Shown: one piece after another, positions 17,278 to 37,296 of the stretch | Position numbering within the stretch: position 1 is the stretch's first letter | Layout: each line of letters starts with the position of its first letter | IMG/VR virus record: IMGVR_UViG_3300032245_000985 | Location: 1-44,316 of that record | Length of the DNA stretch: 44,316 bases | Strand: one strand, 5' to 3' | From: a virus | Notes under the pieces: generated by a model | The model's input: only the letters and a program-made list of their open reading frames with translations | Databases searched by the model: none | What the model was told of the DNA's origin: nothing | Made by a program: the position numbers and the translations under genes

Positions 17278-17292
17278 ATAATGATCCGCATG

Positions 17293-17300
17293 TATTTATT
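17293..17300 (-). promoter_or_regulatory. T4-late-like promoter box (AATAAATA)
   Basis: AATAAATA on the minus strand, 15 bases before the ATG at 17277, at the head of the structural block and within the short divergent gap to the zinc-ribbon gene. Confidence 0.5.
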
Positions 17301-17319
17301 AAATATTTTAGAGGATATC

Positions 17320-17607
17320 ATGTTCATAGAAACACTGAAAACACTCCGACTGTACGAGCGCCAGAGCAAACTGGGTGTGTATCATACCTTCAAACGCAAG
17401 AACACTCTATACGTATTCAAATGTGATTGCTGCGGCACCACTTTTTTTCGTCCCAAAAGCCAAGTGGATCAGGATCGAGCTACCAATGATTATAAACATG
17501 TGTGCAGCTTCTGTGATTCCAAAAGATTCGCTCAAAAAGTGGGTGTTAAAATGCGTCGAATTTATAAAACGGACGCCAGCAGTGATAGACCTATAGGCAG
17601 CAGTTAA
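17320..17607 (+). CDS. Small zinc-ribbon protein
   Basis: 95 aa from the ATG at 17320, chosen because GAGG (17311-17314) lies 5 bases upstream; an earlier in-frame ATG at 17281 lacks this. Cysteines at 35, 37, 38 (CDCC) and 62, 65 (CSFC) form a treble-clef or zinc-ribbon site, and the rest is basic. This suggests nucleic-acid binding, perhaps a small transcription or recombination factor, but I do not recognise it. Its TAA stop shares the palindrome TTAA with the stop of the convergent A-type carrier gene. Confidence 0.75.
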   Translation: MFIETLKTLRLYERQSKLGVYHTFKRKNTLYVFKCDCCGTTFFRPKSQVDQDRATNDYKHVCSFCDSKRFAQKVGVKMRRIYKTDASSDRPIGSS

Positions 17608-17939
17608 ACAGAGAAACTCTCACCACAACCACAACCACCTGAAGCATTGGGATTAGTGATTTCAAATTGTGATCCAAACACTTCTTCTCGCCAATCAATT
17701 CTTGTGCCTGCTACGTAGAGCATGCTGGTAGAATCCACCACAAATTTTCCACCCTCCCATGATTCCACTACATCGTCTTTCTGGATCTGTTCTGCAGAAT
17801 CTACAAATCCCCAATCATACTTAAAACCTGCACAACCACCACCTCGCACTGATAGACTCACAGCATATTTGCCAGGATTTCTAGATAATAAATTACCAAT
17901 CTGTTTTTGAGCCGACTCTGTTAATTCAAACCATTTCAT
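17604..17939 (-). CDS. hesB: A-type iron-sulfur carrier (HesB/IscA family)
   Basis: 111 aa. The three conserved Cys are present: C36 in GGGCAGFKY and C103/C105 in GGCGCGES, the ligands that hold and deliver Fe-S clusters. Length and fold signature (VDSTSMLYVAGTRIDW) match the family. HesB-like genes are common in marine T4-like phages. Here Fe-S supply could serve the phage radical SAM enzyme at 21873-22955, with SufE at 22952. It has its own divergent sigma70-like promoter. Confidence 0.93.
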   Translation of the reverse strand: MKWFELTESAQKQIGNLLSRNPGKYAVSLSVRGGGCAGFKYDWGFVDSAEQIQKDDVVESWEGGKFVVDSTSMLYVAGTRIDWREEVFGSQFEITNPNASGGCGCGESFSV

Positions 17940-17987: not shown

Positions 17988-18017
17988 TTGACACTGACAA
18001 TAGTGTTATGTTACAAT
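17988..18017 (+). promoter_or_regulatory. Sigma70-like promoter of the oxygenase/aminotransferase/amidinotransferase operon
   Basis: Perfect TTGACA (17988-17993), an 18-base spacer, TACAAT (18012-18017), then 6 bases to the ATG at 18024. It implies a leaderless transcript for the five-gene operon. It sits back-to-back with the A-type carrier promoter. Confidence 0.65.
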
Positions 18018-18023
18018 GGTTAT

Positions 18024-18584
18024 ATGCTGATAGACTACACTCGATATCGTGATTATTCACGACTGGCTGATATATTCCGCAGAGTGAAACAGACCTATAA
18101 TATAGAACAAGATCTACGAGATTTCCGAACGGAAGACTGGACAGAACAATGGAACCAAGGCACACACTCTGATTCAGCACCCACTTATTCCTATGACATA
18201 TACAATCGTTTTGTGAAAAGAACACCACCTGCAAGATGGAATGAGTTGGTAAGAGATATCAGCACACTATCAGGTATCAGTTATTCTGCAATCATAGTGG
18301 TACCTCCACATTCCGTTATGCCTGAGCACACTGATTGGAGTCACATTGAAGGTATGGATGACGGAGAACCAGATCGCACCTACACCATCATGTACTATCT
18401 ACGTCAACCCAAAACCACTGAACAACAGTGTGGCATGCAGTGGGGAGATCGGAAATTATACCTGCCGGAAGATTCTATACTGTGTCTAGATGGAGGTCGC
18501 AATCCTCATTCTGTGTACAATCACACTGCAGAAACTCGAGTATCATTTTGCCTAAGTGTGCTAGAAACGAGTTTTGACCTATGA
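18024..18584 (+). CDS. Putative 2OG-Fe(II) hydroxylase (Asp/Asn beta-hydroxylase-like), operon gene 1
   Basis: 186 aa from the ATG at 18024; the open frame begins earlier, but the promoter ends only 6 bases before this ATG. The iron-binding facial triad is readable as H102-x-D104 (PEHTDWSH) with the distal His at 162 or 167 (RNPHSVYNHT) and the 2OG-binding Arg at 172 (ETRVSF). The frame PPHSVMPEHTD ... TYTIMYYLRQP ... LCLDGGRNPHSVYNH matches the aspartyl/asparaginyl hydroxylase cupin. It would oxidise a side chain or free amino acid; the substrate is unknown. Its stop overlaps the next ATG (ATGA). Confidence 0.78.
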   Translation: MLIDYTRYRDYSRLADIFRRVKQTYNIEQDLRDFRTEDWTEQWNQGTHSDSAPTYSYDIYNRFVKRTPPARWNELVRDISTLSGISYSAIIVVPPHSVMPEHTDWSHIEGMDDGEPDRTYTIMYYLRQPKTTEQQCGMQWGDRKLYLPEDSILCLDGGRNPHSVYNHTAETRVSFCLSVLETSFDL

Positions 18585-19165
18585 AAGTGATAGATCATTT
18601 CCTTGATACAGAGTTTGCTCATGAATTGGAGCAATACATTCTCAGTCAACTGGATAAACCTGTGTGGATACACGGACACTCATTCTATCATGAAGAGTTA
18701 AAGAATTACATTGTGGAGAGTATGGCTCCTTACATTGCTTCTTTAGATAAAGAATTAGCACACAAATTAAAACAGAATTTACTAACACAAGGTATACTGA
18801 TACAAGAACCCACGGATTATGATGCACTAATCTATAATGCCTATCCACTCAGTTCGGTAGGTTGGCATACCGACAAGCATGACGAGTATGAGCACGGCGG
18901 TTCTGAATGTCCAGGCTGTCGAGATGTGGCAGGTATATCTATATATCTTAATAGAGAATGGAAACCCAATTGGGGCGGATGTTTTCTATTGAAAGATCAC
19001 AAGTCATCCACACAAGGCACATTCTATGAACCTATATACAACAGAGCAGTGATCAATAATGGCCGAGATATTCACGCTGTCAGCGCCATAACCAATGGAG
19101 CACACAATAGATACAGTGTGCAACTGTTTGTGAACAGATCCTCTCTGAGAGAAGATTTACAATGA
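18581..19165 (+). CDS. 2OG-Fe(II) oxygenase (prolyl-4-hydroxylase-like), operon gene 2
   Basis: 194 aa. The double-stranded beta-helix residues are clear: H96-T-D98 (VGWHTDKHD), the GGCFLL strand (PNWGGCFLLKD), distal H165 (NNGRDIHAVSAI) and 2OG-binding R177 (HNRYSVQLFV). This matches the phage/bacterial 2OG-FeII_Oxy family. Unusual is a short loop straight after the HxD motif with C110 and C113 (GGSECPGCRDV), possibly a second metal site. It starts within an ATGA overlap and ends in another, so it is translationally coupled to both neighbours. Confidence 0.85.
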   Translation: MKVIDHFLDTEFAHELEQYILSQLDKPVWIHGHSFYHEELKNYIVESMAPYIASLDKELAHKLKQNLLTQGILIQEPTDYDALIYNAYPLSSVGWHTDKHDEYEHGGSECPGCRDVAGISIYLNREWKPNWGGCFLLKDHKSSTQGTFYEPIYNRAVINNGRDIHAVSAITNGAHNRYSVQLFVNRSSLREDLQ

Positions 19166-19713
19166 TTTCTTCCAGTCAATGCAGACATCATGACTTGTTT
19201 CAAAGTCTCTATCAGCACTGTCGAGCAGACTGGGAGGAATGGAATCAAACTCATAATATTGAAACAGAATCAATCAATGCAGGTGATGTATATGAAGCCA
19301 AAATGCTGGATGACCGTTGTGGTTGGTGGGGTGTACCTTTGGTTCATTTTTATAAACGTACTAGATGGAGCGAGCAATGGCCACGTACCTACAGTGCTAC
19401 CAAAGATGTGCCAGGTGTTATACATGTGGCAATAAACTTTACCAAACCAGGCTGCACTATTCCTGTGCATCAAGACAAAGTGGATCGTATCAATGATCGT
19501 GTGGTAGATCTTGTACCCACATTGATAGGAATTCGCATTCCAAGCGACGACATAGATATTGTGGGATTTGAAATAGATCAAAAAAGAATTTATATAGGTG
19601 AAGGAGATATTGTGAGTTTCCTACCAGAACAACCACACGGTAGTTGGAACTTTTCATCAGAATGGAGAGTCACTCTGTACATCACAACAGAAAGAACATA
19701 CTGGCAACTATGA
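19162..19713 (+). CDS. Asp/Asn beta-hydroxylase-like 2OG oxygenase, operon gene 3
   Basis: 183 aa. The triad is H103-Q-D105 (CTIPVHQDKVD) and H159 (EQPHGSWNFS) with R169 (EWRVTLYI) for 2OG. The layout PGCTIPVHQDK ... IGIRIPSDD ... GDIVSFLPEQPHGSWN is the aspartyl/asparaginyl beta-hydroxylase pattern. It differs enough from operon gene 1 that the two are distant paralogues or separately acquired, so the operon has three non-redundant oxygenases. The stop forms ATGA with the aminotransferase start. Confidence 0.8.
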   Translation: MISSSQCRHHDLFQSLYQHCRADWEEWNQTHNIETESINAGDVYEAKMLDDRCGWWGVPLVHFYKRTRWSEQWPRTYSATKDVPGVIHVAINFTKPGCTIPVHQDKVDRINDRVVDLVPTLIGIRIPSDDIDIVGFEIDQKRIYIGEGDIVSFLPEQPHGSWNFSSEWRVTLYITTERTYWQL

Positions 19714-20804
19714 AACCTTTTCCAGGATTAATATGTGGTGAACAAAACCCAGTAGGACCATCGCAACCTTATTGGCAGTATGGTAATATTGTTAATGGAG
19801 TCAAACAAATAGATCCAATATTGCATTTTGGTTGTTTCGTATTAGGATTCCAACGCACAGACATTGTGGATTATGTGTGTGAGCATATGAAAACCAAACC
19901 TGAAGTGGCAGAAAGTTTTCTTGCTCATGATGAATTAAGACTCAATGATGTTACTTGGCAGTTGGCAGAACGACTGCACAGTATGACCGGCTATAAAAGT
20001 ATATTTGCTCTCAGCGGCAGTGATGCCAATGAAGGTGCAGTAAAACTAGCCAGTGCTTATCAAAAACAAATAGGACAAACACAACGCCATCGCATTGTGT
20101 CATTTGAGAACAGTTATCATGGTTCTACTTTCCTAAACTATAATATGGGAGACAGTTTATTCCGCAATCCTTTTTATACACTACGACCTTATGAATCAGT
20201 AACAAGATTACCTAGAGACTTTGCAGTGCTGGATCATAATTGGTCAGATGTGATCTGCGTGATGGTGGAAACCTGTCCATACAATAATGGTCTACAACCT
20301 GACTCGGCTGAATTTTGGGCCAAGATCAATCAAATACAACAGCAAGGAGTTATAGTTATTGTGGATGATATATTCATAGGTGGCGGTAAAACTGGCACTG
20401 TGTTTGGTTGGCAAACATTGCCCATTGCTCCAGATATCACCACACAAGGCAAAGCCATCACGGCAGGCTACTTCCCTCTCAGTATCACAATGTACAACAA
20501 AAAAATTGCTGATGCACTGTTGGATCAATTTGATTGGGAACATGGGTTTACATACAGTTTTTCACTGCCTGGTATTTTAAGTTGTTACAAATATTTAGAT
20601 ATACTAGAACAAGAACAGATATTACAACAACATCAAACAGTAGTCACTGCTGCTCGAACAATCTTTGCTCAACAAGATTATCAAGTGATTGGAGAATTTG
20701 GCACAATGTTTTATATTAAAAGAAAACAAGATAAACAGTTCTTTGTTGTGCCTGTTAATGCCACAGATGAATATTTTGCTGTGTTAAAGGAGCAGTTGCA
20801 ATGA
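19710..20804 (+). CDS. Class III PLP aminotransferase, operon gene 4
   Basis: 364 aa from the ATG at 19710, chosen for its ATGA overlap with the oxygenase. Fold type I class III features are all present: SGSDANEGAVKLA (102-114, cofactor phosphate loop), SYHGST (aromatic/His stacking), D219 in VDDIFIGGGKTG (pyridine N contact) and Schiff-base K248 in TTQGKAITAGYFP. Such enzymes move an amino group between an omega-amine or beta/gamma amino acid and a keto acid; glutamate-1-semialdehyde-type mutases share the fold. It is somewhat short for the family (usually 400-450 aa), losing part of the N-terminal region. It would create or consume an amine that the next enzyme could amidinate. Confidence 0.9.
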   Translation: MKPFPGLICGEQNPVGPSQPYWQYGNIVNGVKQIDPILHFGCFVLGFQRTDIVDYVCEHMKTKPEVAESFLAHDELRLNDVTWQLAERLHSMTGYKSIFALSGSDANEGAVKLASAYQKQIGQTQRHRIVSFENSYHGSTFLNYNMGDSLFRNPFYTLRPYESVTRLPRDFAVLDHNWSDVICVMVETCPYNNGLQPDSAEFWAKINQIQQQGVIVIVDDIFIGGGKTGTVFGWQTLPIAPDITTQGKAITAGYFPLSITMYNKKIADALLDQFDWEHGFTYSFSLPGILSCYKYLDILEQEQILQQHQTVVTAARTIFAQQDYQVIGEFGTMFYIKRKQDKQFFVVPVNATDEYFAVLKEQLQ

Positions 20805-21862
20805 CCTATACAGAATATGATCCATTGGAGAGTGTGATAGTGGGAGATACTTATGCTCCGGGTGATGTGGATCATTTGTTGAACAGCAATGCCACACAAT
20901 TCAATAAAATTCTAGAAGAAACCAAACAAGATTTAGACAGTCTAGCAGATTTTCTTAAACAAGGTAATATTAATGTGGTGCGTCCTACATTGTATCGTTA
21001 TGACAGTGTAAAGATGCCCAAGTTTGACATACAGTTGCCCATGGCACCAGTGGTACCAAGAGATGCACTGCTAGTGATAGGCAATACTATTATGCAAACT
21101 TATACCAGTTACACAGATAGATATTTTGATTCGATTAGTTATTATTCTATATTTGAAAAAATGTTTAGAGAAGGTTATCGTTGGATCAGCCAACCAACAC
21201 CTATGTTAACCAATCTTAATACTGAACATGATTGGTTTGTGAGTGATAGAACCTATAAAGATAAATTATCAGATCGAGTTTTATGGCACACTGCCACAAT
21301 GTATCGAGCAGGTGATGCTGTTATTGTGAATAACGAAGGTCCAGGATCAGCCACAGGATTAGAATGGTGTCGCCGAGAGTTACCCGAATTTAAATTCTAT
21401 CACAACACCGGCACACGTTTTAAAGGTTTTGGCCATATTGATCACGGCTTTATAATGATAGACGATGACACAGTAATTCATGCAGGATTAGATTGGGTAC
21501 CAGAATGTTTACGTAAAAAGAAACTAATCGATGTAAGTGATTGTTTACCCAAATTAAAGTTAGATAGATATGTGCAAGATTACGCACAGGCTCGTAACAA
21601 AATGGATGTAGAATGGTTAGACAAGTATCTAGAAAATTGGAGAGGTTACGTTCAAGAGGTATGCTTTGATTTAAATGTACTTGTTATAGACCGAAACAAT
21701 ATTGTATTTGCAAGGCACTTGCCTGATTTATTTGCAAAATTAAAAGCTCTACAGATAGATTGTCATGTGATTCCACAGCGTCACTATTTGTTTTGGGAAG
21801 GTGGTATTCACTGTTCTACTCTTGATATTAAAAGAAAAGGTACTAAAAGAAAAGTTATTTAA
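20801..21862 (+). CDS. GATM-family amidinotransferase, operon gene 5
   Basis: 353 aa, the length of arginine:glycine amidinotransferase. VPRDALLVIGNTIMQT, LEWCRRELPEFKF, GHIDHGF and GGIHCSTLDIKRKGT line up with AGAT blocks. H212 (GHIDHGF) and nucleophile C338 (GGIHCST) correspond to AGAT His303 and Cys407. AGAT Asp254 (in FDAAD) aligns by eye with H163 (LWHTATMYRAG), an altered catalytic position. Family role: transfer of the amidino group from arginine to an amine through a Cys-amidino intermediate. The acceptor here is unknown. It has a good Shine-Dalgarno (AAAGGAG) inside the aminotransferase gene and ends 10 bases from the convergent radical SAM gene. Confidence 0.85.
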   Translation: MTYTEYDPLESVIVGDTYAPGDVDHLLNSNATQFNKILEETKQDLDSLADFLKQGNINVVRPTLYRYDSVKMPKFDIQLPMAPVVPRDALLVIGNTIMQTYTSYTDRYFDSISYYSIFEKMFREGYRWISQPTPMLTNLNTEHDWFVSDRTYKDKLSDRVLWHTATMYRAGDAVIVNNEGPGSATGLEWCRRELPEFKFYHNTGTRFKGFGHIDHGFIMIDDDTVIHAGLDWVPECLRKKKLIDVSDCLPKLKLDRYVQDYAQARNKMDVEWLDKYLENWRGYVQEVCFDLNVLVIDRNNIVFARHLPDLFAKLKALQIDCHVIPQRHYLFWEGGIHCSTLDIKRKGTKRKVI

Positions 21863-21872
21863 TTACCAAACT

Positions 21873-22955
21873 TTATAATATATCCCCGTCGTTCTTTTCG
21901 TTGTAGGTGTATGTTTCTGGTACTCGATTCAACACAGGTAATCCTTTGTTCACATAAGCATCTCGAGTGATCACTTGATGCACAAAGTTAGTGAGATAGC
22001 CTTGTCTATTAAATTTAGCCCACGGAGAGTGTTTCAGTTGATGCATGTCTATATTAGCAGCATCTGGCCACTGTATAATTCTCAATTTGTGTCCGTTCAT
22101 ATGTGCCATCATGTGATACATATTGTCATCTCCTTCATCGTGAGCGCTGATCAATTCATGTCCTAATGATCGAGCTATCTTTTCTATTTCTTTATAATTC
22201 TTGCTGATATATGCTGTGGGTTCATTGGGTACTCGACCTATGTTACTGCCCAATCGTATACGAAACTGATATTTTTTCTTTTTATTGTAAGCAGGAAAAC
22301 TATTAATTTCTTCCAATACATCTCGTAGATGCTCATAGTTCTCCACAGTGTATCCTATATAATGGAAATGTAAATCCATATCAATACAATTTTTTATACC
22401 TTCTAATTGTCTCTCATGAGTATCTCTGCCTTGATAACTCCAATGATTCAATCCTATCAGCACATTCTTTACTCTATATAATAATAAATTTTCCACAAAT
22501 TTCTTCTCACTGAGTCTCACACCATTGGTCAGTATAGATGGTACTCTATTATCCTGATGCACACAGTCTATGATATCAAATAGATCTTTTCTCACAGTGG
22601 GTTCTGCACCAGCAAGAATAATATTTTTTAATTGAGCAGGAGCTGTGCGTATGTCATTGTAAATGTAAGCAAGATCGATATCTCTGTCTTTGTTATTGGG
22701 TATATGATAACAATGAGGACAGTCCAACTGACATCTGTTGGTAGTTTCTATCATCAGTATTTTATTATAGAGCTTATTTGTTCGTTGTTCCAATCTCTCG
22801 CAGAATTCTGCATCAGGATCTTGCACTATTTTAAACAATCCGTGTTCTGGACATTCTTTATTAATATATCTCACACCATCTTCCACTGTGATCTGAGAAG
22901 GTAAATGTTTATAACAGATATGACACAGAGAATGTGATTCGTATAATAGTTTCAT
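21873..22955 (-). CDS. Radical SAM enzyme with N-terminal zinc-type motif (Tes/MJ0619-like)
   Basis: 360 aa. The SAM-binding cluster motif is C75-x3-C79-x2-C82 (NRCQLDCPHCYH), followed by an AGAEPTVRKDLFDII glycine/glutamate strand. Ahead of it lies C11-x2-C14 ... C35-P-x-H38 (SLCHICYKH, NKECPEHG), the rubredoxin-like start seen in the MJ0619/tetraether-synthase-like group, whose members act on pterins and lipids. The C-terminal 100 residues have no Cys-rich SPASM domain. Substrate unknown. Its ATG overlaps the SufE stop (ATGA), so the Fe-S enzyme and a sulfur-transfer protein are co-translated. Confidence 0.85.
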   Translation of the reverse strand: MKLLYESHSLCHICYKHLPSQITVEDGVRYINKECPEHGLFKIVQDPDAEFCERLEQRTNKLYNKILMIETTNRCQLDCPHCYHIPNNKDRDIDLAYIYNDIRTAPAQLKNIILAGAEPTVRKDLFDIIDCVHQDNRVPSILTNGVRLSEKKFVENLLLYRVKNVLIGLNHWSYQGRDTHERQLEGIKNCIDMDLHFHYIGYTVENYEHLRDVLEEINSFPAYNKKKKYQFRIRLGSNIGRVPNEPTAYISKNYKEIEKIARSLGHELISAHDEGDDNMYHMMAHMNGHKLRIIQWPDAANIDMHQLKHSPWAKFNRQGYLTNFVHQVITRDAYVNKGLPVLNRVPETYTYNEKNDGDIL

Positions 22956-23356
22956 CTTCCGTTGGCGTAGTTCTTTATTGTTAATATAAGACTGCCCAAA
23001 CCATTCTGTCTCTGTGGTGTGAGTATAGAAGTCATGCCCAATGGTGCAAAATCTTCTATTTTTATTTTTTGTACGTTCTTGTATTTTTGTCCACTCAATA
23101 TATCTAACACAATATAAGCAGTGCCTCGAGTTATAAAAGCATCTGCACCTGCTCGTAATCGCAATACTTCTTTTTCAAATATCGGTATCAACCATAGATT
23201 ACTAGCACAACCGTGTATTTTAAAACTGTCCAACTGATATTTGTCATCTAATGGTTCTAACTTTCGTCCCAAATCCATAAGATATTCTATTCGGTCCATG
23301 CCTGACAACTGATCCAGTGTTTTGCTCCATTGAGTAATCTTATCTTTTATTCGCAT
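22952..23356 (-). CDS. sufE: SufE-like sulfur acceptor
   Basis: 134 aa from the ATG at 23356, preceded by GGGAG. MDRIEYLMDLGRKLEPLDDK and FKIHGCASNLWLIP match SufE/CsdE, in which the Cys (here in HGCASN) accepts persulfide sulfur from a SufS-type cysteine desulfurase. It would boost host Suf Fe-S assembly, with the phage A-type carrier at 17604 as a later step. It lies directly upstream of the radical SAM gene and overlaps the W-rich gene before it by 17 bases. Confidence 0.9.
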   Translation of the reverse strand: MRIKDKITQWSKTLDQLSGMDRIEYLMDLGRKLEPLDDKYQLDSFKIHGCASNLWLIPIFEKEVLRLRAGADAFITRGTAYIVLDILSGQKYKNVQKIKIEDFAPLGMTSILTPQRQNGLGSLILTIKNYANGR

Positions 23357-23636
23357 GATCTCCCATCCTCTGCCACCAGAACCAAAAACGCAGAGCATCC
23401 TTTTTATATTGAAAACTCATATAAGCTCTGTTCCGACCATATGCTCGTTCATCATAGGTATCATAGTCAAGATTGCTCCAATCTGGATGTGTCCAAAACC
23501 ACCAACCCCATGATCCCACGCTGTGTCTTTTGCACCATTCTATAAATTCTCCATCCACTCCAAAAGAATTAAGATCTATATTGTGACGAAATTTCTGTAG
23601 ATAACCAGATTTCTTGCGTCGTTTTTTCTTAATCAT
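23340..23636 (-). CDS. Trp-rich 98-aa protein, unknown
   Basis: 98 aa, basic N-terminus (KKKRRKKSG), then very rich in Trp and Tyr: HSVGSWGWWFWTHPDWSNL and KKDALRFWFWWQRMGDH. No family recognised; not a membrane protein by pattern, since aromatic residues alternate with charges. It overlaps sufE by 17 bases and has its own promoter with TATAAT 7 bases before the ATG. It may head the W-rich/sufE/radical SAM unit. Confidence 0.7.
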   Translation of the reverse strand: MIKKKRRKKSGYLQKFRHNIDLNSFGVDGEFIEWCKRHSVGSWGWWFWTHPDWSNLDYDTYDERAYGRNRAYMSFQYKKDALRFWFWWQRMGDHANKR

Positions 23637-23643
23637 ATACTCA

Positions 23644-23672
23644 ATTATAAAGGATTAACTGTTGGTATTCAA
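23644..23672 (-). promoter_or_regulatory. Sigma70-like promoter for the sufE/radical SAM unit
   Basis: On the minus strand TTGAAT (23667-23672), a 17-base spacer, TATAAT (23644-23649), then 7 bases to the ATG at 23636. It overlaps the 3' end of the superoxide dismutase gene. Confidence 0.6.
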
Positions 23673-24224
23673 CCTGTCGTTGATCACAGACCAATTGATA
23701 ATACGCATTACCGCGATAATGTATCTTTTCTTAGCATCTTTGGCTGGCATATAATCCATAAAAGAATGCTCCCACATGTCTATGGGCAAGAGAATATCAG
23801 TTTTATACGATTGGTTAGGAGTGGTTTTAATTTCACCCAATTTGGACAAATATACCCATCCTGATCCGTGTATGCTCATGGCTTTCTTCACAAACTCATC
23901 TAATAGATTATCCATAGATTTATATTTTTGTTCTATTAATTCTTTGATTGCACCTATGGGTCGATTTGTACCTTTGGGTGCTTGTAATTGTTGCCAGAAT
24001 ATATTGTGTAACATAGCACCACCATAATTGAAATCTGAATCACCTTCGCGATTATTGTAACGATCCACATAACCATTAGATAATACATTGTAATGATATT
24101 CCACATTCTCTTGACTCAGAACAGGAGCAAGGTCAGAAGTTTTGTAAGGTAGTTTCTCTAATACCAATTTACTTGGGCGTTTTTTTGTTTCTACTATATC
24201 AATATATTGTCGCATTAATGACAT
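23655..24224 (-). CDS. sod: Fe/Mn superoxide dismutase
   Basis: About 190 aa from the ATG at 24224. All four metal ligands are visible: H44 (VEYHYNVLS), H73 (AMLHNIFW), D149 and H153 (LPIDMWEHSFMDY). The order and spacing are those of the Fe/Mn SOD family, a little different from standard in the second helix (MLHNIFWQQL versus NHTFYW). It has no signal peptide, so it acts in the cytoplasm. I chose 24224 because an AATAAATA late-like box ends 5 bases upstream; the open frame extends to a GTG inside the endonuclease gene. SOD is an uncommon auxiliary gene in lytic phages. Confidence 0.9.
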   Translation of the reverse strand: MSLMRQYIDIVETKKRPSKLVLEKLPYKTSDLAPVLSQENVEYHYNVLSNGYVDRYNNREGDSDFNYGGAMLHNIFWQQLQAPKGTNRPIGAIKELIEQKYKSMDNLLDEFVKKAMSIHGSGWVYLSKLGEIKTTPNQSYKTDILLPIDMWEHSFMDYMPAKDAKKRYIIAVMRIINWSVINDRLNTNS

Positions 24225-24229
24225 AGCAA

Positions 24230-24237
24230 TATTTATT
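24230..24237 (-). promoter_or_regulatory. T4-late-like promoter box (AATAAATA)
   Basis: AATAAATA on the minus strand, 5 bases before the chosen sod ATG at 24224; the extremely short gap suggests a leaderless message or use of the ATG at 24215. Confidence 0.45.
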
Positions 24238-24238
24238 G

Positions 24239-25276
24239 CTAACTTAATGATTGTTCGTAAAGCTGTTGAGCAGCTAGATTCTTCCACTTGGCTTCAACTT
24301 GTATATCAAACTGATCTGAGAATGTTAATGCCCAAGCATTCGCAGTTCTATTGGGTAATAGATCGGAATGAGCCCTTAGTTTTTGTTTCTTACAACCTAA
24401 CAATAATAGGTCTTTGATATTATGCAAACCTGAGTGCATTTTTTCAGGATTATCTCTGTAAGCAGGCATCAGCTCTTCGTCACGGAAATAGGAATAATGT
24501 AGAGTAGGACGTGTACCTCTCCATGAATCAATTACTCTTTTAACTCTATCATCGTTCGCTTGTATATATTCCTCATCTCGTATTAGGTGATGATGTATGT
24601 CCAACACCAATGCCACATGTTTCTCCAATTGTAGTGTAGCATCCAACCCCCAACCCATTTCATCATTCTCTATAGTGATTAGGTTACGAGCTTCAGGTGA
24701 TAGTCGAGGTAATACTCGTATAATACCTTCTGGACCTTGACGACCGGATATGTGTACATTAATTTTACAACCATCTTGAAATTTCTTACCAAATCCCATC
24801 CAGCGAGCCATGTTTACATGATATTCAAATTCGTCAATACTTCTTCTTACAATATCTTCAGATTCAGAAGCTAATACCGTAAATTGTCCTGGATGGAAAG
24901 AAACTTTTACATCCAGCCGACGAGCCAGTTCACCTACCTCTGCAAAATGTCGTTCACAATAACGCACAACATCAGGAGAATCTATATAGTATCTCCAAGT
25001 CTCCTCAGTGGCCATAGGCAACACAGGTGAACCCAGTCGTACCATTCTGCGTTCAGGTGGTAACAATCCCACCTGTGCCACAAGTTTTTTCAATGATTCA
25101 ATATTGTGTCGTACCACCATGTCCAGTTTGGCTTCTGCTTGATCACGATGCTCATTTAGCCAACGCACTGTGGTGGCTTTGGTGTTGAAAGGTCTTTGAA
25201 TTTCTTCTAGTTGTTTCTTGTTGAGTGTTTGATCAGGATGATACCATTGACAACAGAAACCTATGCGTTTTACCAT
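24239..25276 (-). CDS. uvsE: UV-damage endonuclease (UvdE/UvsE)
   Basis: 345 aa TIM-barrel nuclease. Metal-binding segments are all present: IGFCCQW at the N-terminus, SFHPGQFTVL, NVHISG, TIENDEMG, LDIHHH, the HYSYFRDEELMPAYRDNPEKMHSGLHN region and LRAHSDLL near the C-terminus. It nicks DNA 5' to UV photoproducts and starts alternative excision repair. An ideal TTGACA/TACAAT promoter ends 6 bases before the ATG. For a sunlit-ocean phage this is a plausible repair gene, comparable in purpose to T4 denV. Confidence 0.95.
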   Translation of the reverse strand: MVKRIGFCCQWYHPDQTLNKKQLEEIQRPFNTKATTVRWLNEHRDQAEAKLDMVVRHNIESLKKLVAQVGLLPPERRMVRLGSPVLPMATEETWRYYIDSPDVVRYCERHFAEVGELARRLDVKVSFHPGQFTVLASESEDIVRRSIDEFEYHVNMARWMGFGKKFQDGCKINVHISGRQGPEGIIRVLPRLSPEARNLITIENDEMGWGLDATLQLEKHVALVLDIHHHLIRDEEYIQANDDRVKRVIDSWRGTRPTLHYSYFRDEELMPAYRDNPEKMHSGLHNIKDLLLLGCKKQKLRAHSDLLPNRTANAWALTFSDQFDIQVEAKWKNLAAQQLYEQSLS

Positions 25277-36840: not shown

Positions 36841-37296
36841 TTAAGAAACTACCTGTAATGCCCTACGAGCACGTCTTTTACGCATGGGTACCACAGCGCC
36901 AGTTAATGGTATTTCCTTAAGATCGTTCTCACGATCTAGAAATTTGTAGTCCATTTTGATCACACCAAAACGACGCAGTGACTCAAACACCACATCAGTG
37001 TCCAATGCTCCACAGGTGTACACGTCCAATTGTATCATGGCAGGCTCGCACTCATCCCAAGTGTGCATCACCACGTGTGACGTTTCAATGATGGCAAAAC
37101 AAGTCAATCCACGATTGCCAGGAATATCCACATACTTGGCTTCTGGGCCAAACAGTATTTTCATGTTAATGCCTTCAATCAGTTCTCGTAAAAATTCTTT
37201 TGCTAGTGTCTCATCTTTGGGTGGGTTTGTTACTTCTGCTCGCACTATCAAGTGCTTGTGAACAAGTGGTTTCATTTTCTGTTTGTCTCCTGACAT
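36841..37296 (-). CDS. speD: S-adenosylmethionine decarboxylase (SpeD, prokaryotic type)
   Basis: 151 aa. The self-processing Ser is S73 in ETSHVVMHTW, with H78 and C95 (LDVYTCG) as the other catalytic residues of the AdoMetDC proenzyme, which cleaves itself to create a pyruvoyl group. It supplies decarboxylated SAM for spermidine; polyamines neutralise packaged DNA. The basic C-terminal tail (MRKRRARRALQ) is unusual for the family. An alternative start is the ATG at 37275. SpeD is known in marine T4-like phages. The promoter upstream is TTGACA/TTAAAT. Confidence 0.93.
   Translation of the reverse strand: MSGDKQKMKPLVHKHLIVRAEVTNPPKDETLAKEFLRELIEGINMKILFGPEAKYVDIPGNRGLTCFAIIETSHVVMHTWDECEPAMIQLDVYTCGALDTDVVFESLRRFGVIKMDYKFLDRENDLKEIPLTGAVVPMRKRRARRALQVVS

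Follow-up and report, generated by a model that had tools for sequence, protein, structure and literature searches.

Five open reading frames lie in tandem on the plus strand between positions 18024 and 21862 of a viral DNA stretch of 44,316 nt, which was analysed as a whole and is called here the window. The block and the element that precedes it consist of the following features:

17988..18017, plus strand: sigma-70-like promoter, TTGACA-18 nt-TACAAT, 6 nt 5' of the first ATG
18024..18584, plus strand: oxygenase 1 (P0001), a 2OG-Fe(II) oxygenase, Asp_Arg_Hydrox-like
18581..19165, plus strand: oxygenase 2 (P0002), a 2OG-Fe(II) oxygenase, 2OG-FeII_Oxy_3
19162..19713, plus strand: oxygenase 3 (P0003), a 2OG-Fe(II) oxygenase, Asp_Arg_Hydrox PF05118
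19710..20804, plus strand: aminotransferase (AT, P0004), a class III (omega-type) PLP aminotransferase
20801..21862, plus strand: amidinotransferase homologue (AMT, P0005) of the AGAT/HsvA fold

Consecutive genes overlap by ATGA at all four internal junctions (18581, 19162, 19710 and 20801), and re-deriving coordinates and junctions returned the five plus-strand genes and four overlaps of the initial annotation. The TTGACA/TACAAT promoter described there is also present, being the top-ranked of 18 promoter-like sites, with 11 of 12 consensus positions matched and a TG preceding the second hexamer. As a class, such sites occur at chance level (18 observed vs 19.7 expected); nevertheless, the element is conserved: the related contigs L001, L002 and L004 have TTGAC(A/G)-N17/18-TA(C/T)AAT at the corresponding position, with its end about 6 nt 5' of the ATG, while it was not found there in L005 and L006. 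The spacing between promoter and ATG implies that the five-gene transcript would be leaderless, starting at or next to the ATG. The block had been described as running against minus-strand surroundings, which is true of both immediate flanking genes (17604-17939 and 21873-22955), whereas a small open reading frame further out (17281-17607) is on the plus strand. Around the block lie genes for an IscA-like Fe–S protein (17604-17939), SufE (22952-23398), an Fe/Mn superoxide dismutase (23655-24287), and the UV-endonuclease UvdE (24239-25276), and this oxidative-stress/Fe–S neighbourhood is partly common to L001, L002, L004, and L075. Most synonymous sites differ between the window and its relatives, and dN/dS is about 0.04-0.14, a rough range taken from unsaturated pairs, as dS is near saturation in several comparisons; judged by these comparisons, all five genes are maintained by purifying selection.

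The enzyme families first assigned to the five genes were all upheld by profile or structure matches. P0003 passes the cut-off of Asp_Arg_Hydrox (PF05118) with 32.8 bits and P0002 that of 2OG-FeII_Oxy_3, while P0001, a weaker relative of the P0003 family, reaches 21.3 bits against Asp_Arg_Hydrox, under the Pfam gathering cut-off of 22.6. The HxD...H iron triad and the 2OG-binding Arg are intact in all distinct homologues of each oxygenase (9/9 for P0001, 21/21 for P0002 and 18/18 for P0003); in P0001 they correspond to H102/D104, the distal H162 and R172, and in P0003 to H103/D105, H159, and R169, invariant in the six aligned sequences. No PDB relatives were found for oxygenases 1-3. An oxygenase acting together with a PLP enzyme and a group transfer would resemble the general logic of thymidine hypermodification, and nucleotide modification had been among the options put forward initially. 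However, the oxygenases of the window match Asp_Arg_Hydrox and 2OG-FeII_Oxy_3 and none matches a TET/JBP profile, and a PF00303 thymidylate synthase/hydroxymethylase-family gene is present in 0 of 14 records (the window and 13 related ones of up to 266 kb, possibly incomplete). The nucleotide option is weakened by this absence, and a pathway of DNA-base hypermodification appears very improbable.

The aminotransferase scores 136 bits against PF00202 (cut-off 30.5), its closest structures are omega-transaminases, and the PLP Lys248, the PLP-pyridine Asp219 and the phosphate-binding SGSD motif are invariant in 11 homologues. The AT also has a use of its own, because some phages carry this family without an AMT. 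In L139, L150, L152, L156, and L158, all without AMT, the AT gene directly follows an oxygenase-like gene (DUF6445-like in L150), and the pair sits between a probable gp55 sigma factor gene and a gp47-like gene, both names being putative.

P0005 has no Pfam match, and its sequence matches in the PDB are HsvA, AGAT, StrB1 and SxtG, the best being HsvA (5wpi) at about 20% identity. Its AlphaFold model (mean pLDDT 70.5) has the pentein (GME) fold, with 5wpi, 1jdw, 6u1r, and 1bwd as top Foldseek matches (E ~1e-18 to 1e-20); HsvA again comes first (TM 0.71), by a small margin over AGAT, SxtG, and StrB1, and DDAH and arginine deiminase trail the amidinotransferase folds by a wide margin. The catalytic residues of AGAT are Asp254, His303, and Cys407. 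In precursor numbering, with D170 as the residue after PR in the AGAT alignment, P0005 keeps D170 (D88), H303 (H212), D305 (D214), and C407 (C338), and the position of Asp254 is occupied by His163. The earlier statement that the catalytic residues of all five enzymes can be read is therefore sound for four of them and needs this correction for the AMT. Among the matches listed, 127 AMT genes form 48 clusters at 90% identity (22 at 70%), a clustering applied since some contigs are the same or near-identical viruses; D88, H212 and D214 occur in 48/48 clusters, Cys338 in all but one gapped row, and His at position 163 again in 48/48, while AGAT, HsvA, StrB1, SxtG, and a protein of phage CP220 have Asp there. 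Because all clusters have His for Asp254 while keeping the remaining four catalytic residues, the AMT is, on its sequence, a distinct phage subfamily, of which His163 is a fixed property and not a mark of decay.

The replacement of Asp254 by His may point to a different acceptor, a different arrangement of pKa values, or a different reaction. If the last were the case, the subfamily would not be an amidinotransferase but would perform other guanidine chemistry, as a deiminase, a hydrolase or an enzyme moving a different group, and its product would contain no new guanidine. The consistent His where AGAT, HsvA, StrB1, SxtG, and the CP220 homologue have Asp speaks for such a change, but the strict retention of the Cys, the His, and both remaining Asp residues, together with the distance of DDAH and arginine deiminase behind the amidinotransferase folds, makes it unlikely, although by no means negligible. 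Plain transfer of the amidino group of arginine by the AMT is, from the residues retained, likely but not assured. A creatine-type reading, with guanidinoacetate as product, was rejected, as it is supported by the fold alone and Asp254 is missing.

Searches of IMG/VR with P0005 as query gave 35 loci, and those with the AT family and with the family of c5, a small DUF6875-like protein whose gene is absent from the window, gave 80 of 173 and 80 of 93 loci, respectively. The full five-gene order occurs in at least eight other viral contigs (L001-L006, L124, and L130) and hence is not unique to the window; in L123 it is interrupted by the contig end and in L171 the AMT is inverted. A core of AT, AMT, and oxygenase remains recognisable at identities as low as about 50%, and it takes many arrangements, such as oxygenase-AT-(oxygenase)-AMT or an AMT accompanied by c5, SpeD, halogenase, and radical SAM genes. 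The AT adjoins the AMT in 37 of the 48 clusters and lies within 6 kb in 40 among the matches listed, and near the AMT of the 48 clusters listed there is a 2OG oxygenase in 38, c5 in 32, a zinc-ribbon radical SAM gene in 17, a halogenase in 14, and SpeD in 12, the counts for AT and c5 being biased upward by loci that were also seeded from these two families. When only the AMT-seeded loci are considered, almost every one with complete flanks has the AT next to the AMT, except for L022, L029, and L031; the AT lies about 4 kb away in L023, and one small oxygenase separates AT and AMT in L007-L009. Since the homologues also have intact catalytic motifs, apart from the His of the AMT, and are under purifying selection, inactivation, which would have undermined the initial annotation, is not what these genes display, and the cassette is, by its conservation across contigs, a real, co-inherited biosynthetic set. 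Individual loci have further genes close to the core, including one for a NodU-type carbamoyltransferase (L130, 6345-7355) and one for a porphobilinogen deaminase (L137, 6834-7694).

Beyond the five genes, two other features of the window are relevant to the cassette:

21873..22955, minus strand: radical SAM enzyme (P0006) with an N-terminal HMPTM-type zinc ribbon, related to TrsS/Tes
36841..37296, minus strand: SpeD/AdoMet-decarboxylase homologue (pyruvoyl enzyme), 52% identical to a protein of pelagiphage HTVC201P

P0006, whose gene is convergent with that of the AMT in the window and separated from it by a c5 gene in L001, is a probable member of the wider cassette. In L024 (7437-15219) and its relatives, found on contigs of up to 266 kb, a halogenase-like flavoprotein, an oxygenase, c5, AMT, AT, a B12-binding radical SAM enzyme, and a zinc-ribbon radical SAM enzyme are clustered. 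As for SpeD, decarboxylation of Arg or Orn has been demonstrated for phage homologues, and the HTVC201P protein decarboxylates arginine but not ornithine or lysine (PMC9992855), while true AdoMet decarboxylases have a conserved Pro after the H68 region (PMC10407285). The window protein reads HTWDE where this Pro is kept, the exact column being our own reading of the alignment, and it is probably a pyruvoyl arginine decarboxylase, possibly an accessory supplier to the cassette about 15 kb away. Its interpretation as an AdoMet decarboxylase of spermidine synthesis was discarded, as the protein has no such Pro, its nearest match being an arginine decarboxylase, and SpeD is not general to the core. 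Counted over the whole of each record, SpeD was detected in 12/28 AMT-bearing records and in 3/26 records with AT or c5 but without a window-type AMT, so the link to polyamines is not a general one.

A natural fusion of SpeD and c5 (phrog_10325) in L032 (10517-11314) suggests that these two proteins work together. The c5 protein matches DUF6875 weakly (hhalign P = 0.00065, probability 27%), a family described as containing heme proteins oxidising tryptophan (PMC13307353); a fold search gave no match, and its assignment as a YqcI_YcgG-like heme oxygenase was dismissed after a negative profile comparison. It is not specific to the AMT pathway, as it also turns up among structural genes where the AMT is missing; c5 proteins have structural neighbours in L085, L096, L111, L112, and L115. 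In L111 (3634-5387), the gene after c5 encodes a distant homologue of the AMT, about 432 aa long, and the two lie 5' of probable gp25-/gp6-like baseplate genes (putative names).

The position of this L111 pair just 5' of probable baseplate genes is consistent with a cassette that modifies a macromolecule: a peptide, or a protein of the virion or the host, would have its side chains hydroxylated, transaminated, and amidinated in situ. A protein substrate is conceivable for phage 2OG oxygenases of the Asp/Asn-hydroxylase family, and radical SAM genes are found nearby. Nevertheless, neither a co-occurring precursor peptide nor an obvious fixed protein target was found, class III aminotransferases and AGAT-fold amidinotransferases use small amines, and phages that have only the AT place it, with its oxygenase-like gene, by probable middle genes and not by virion genes. 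Modification of a macromolecule is, on balance, quite improbable.

The best explanation seems to be a phage cassette for a hydroxylated guanidino amine, for which the chances can be put as about even. In this pathway, the oxygenases would hydroxylate an aliphatic substrate resembling an amino acid or a polyamine, or oxidise it to a carbonyl, the AT would add or remove a terminal amine, and the AMT would transfer the amidino group of arginine to that amine via a Cys338-amidino intermediate; the simplest order of steps would be oxygenation, amine exchange, and amidino transfer. The product, a hydroxylated guanidino amine, would most likely be a small molecule active in the infected cell, where it could serve as a polycation for DNA condensation or as a metabolic or host-inhibiting signal. 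The best match of the AMT, HsvA, is a polyamine amidinotransferase, which favours a guanidino amine, and the presence of SpeD near the core in a subset of loci fits an arginine/polyamine theme; both the nearest solved relative and the SpeD association lend the pathway a polyamine flavour, neither of them strongly. The guanidino product is only plausible, because the catalytic Asp is replaced by His across the whole AMT subfamily. The reading proposed at the outset has gained a real co-inherited set under purifying selection in many phage contigs, and its guanidino product retains that lesser standing. More tentatively, and with some doubt, the cassette might represent a widespread phage-specific pathway to a novel hydroxylated guanidino metabolite, in which the AMT centre has been rebuilt (Asp254 to His) and to which oxygenases, halogenase-like flavoproteins, radical SAM enzymes, and pyruvoyl decarboxylases have been added in a lineage-specific manner.

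Auxiliary genes of phages mostly enhance a pathway that the host already has. The present cassette looks like a virus-owned biosynthetic pathway of aquatic phages with a natural-product-like logic, because a pattern-limited search of about 85,000 genomes of bacteria and archaea found no host counterpart. In that search, based on short peptide patterns that divergent sequences may escape, no cellular relatives of the AMT were found, and those of the AT were distant (21-29% identical). The invariant His in place of Asp, within an otherwise intact amidinotransferase site, poses a specific and testable question of enzymology, and the small size of the operon makes expression of the whole block feasible.

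No published pathway with the same gene set was found in the open-access literature, with few subscription papers or preprints covered, which agrees with the initial view that no characterised phage pathway of this kind was known; the cassette is apparently undescribed. What this literature does contain is work on phage SpeD, on spermidine and on AMGs, besides annotations of phage amidinotransferase genes. A phage 'glycine amidinotransferase' appears as a gene annotation in a table of PMC8226683, and GAMT is discussed in PMC11360552. The phage SpeD-derived Arg/Orn decarboxylases (PMC9992855, PMC10407285) have a homologue in the window, and some of the phages with the AMT core carry a SpeD homologue beside it, but these papers cover polyamine enzymes, and the word "amidinotransferase" is absent from PMC9992855. 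Among phage proteins, the 'glycine amidinotransferases' of Campylobacter phage CP220, near radical SAM genes, and of Synechococcus phage S-SCSM2R, near 2OG oxygenase genes, have the AGAT fold and are 24-26% identical to P0005; neither is adjoined by an annotated class III aminotransferase, and the CP220 protein keeps the Asp, unlike P0005. AGAT/GATM, StrB1, and SxtG have the fold and four of the five catalytic residues in common with P0005, but they retain Asp254 where the phage subfamily has His, and they belong to other gene neighbourhoods, the glycine/creatine, aminoglycoside, and saxitoxin contexts being absent from the phage cassette. The polyamine amidinotransferase HsvA of Erwinia amylovora (5wpi) likewise has the fold and the Asp, His-x-Asp, and Cys sites of P0005, whereas it differs in its sequence, in the Asp at the AGAT-254 position, and in its partner genes.
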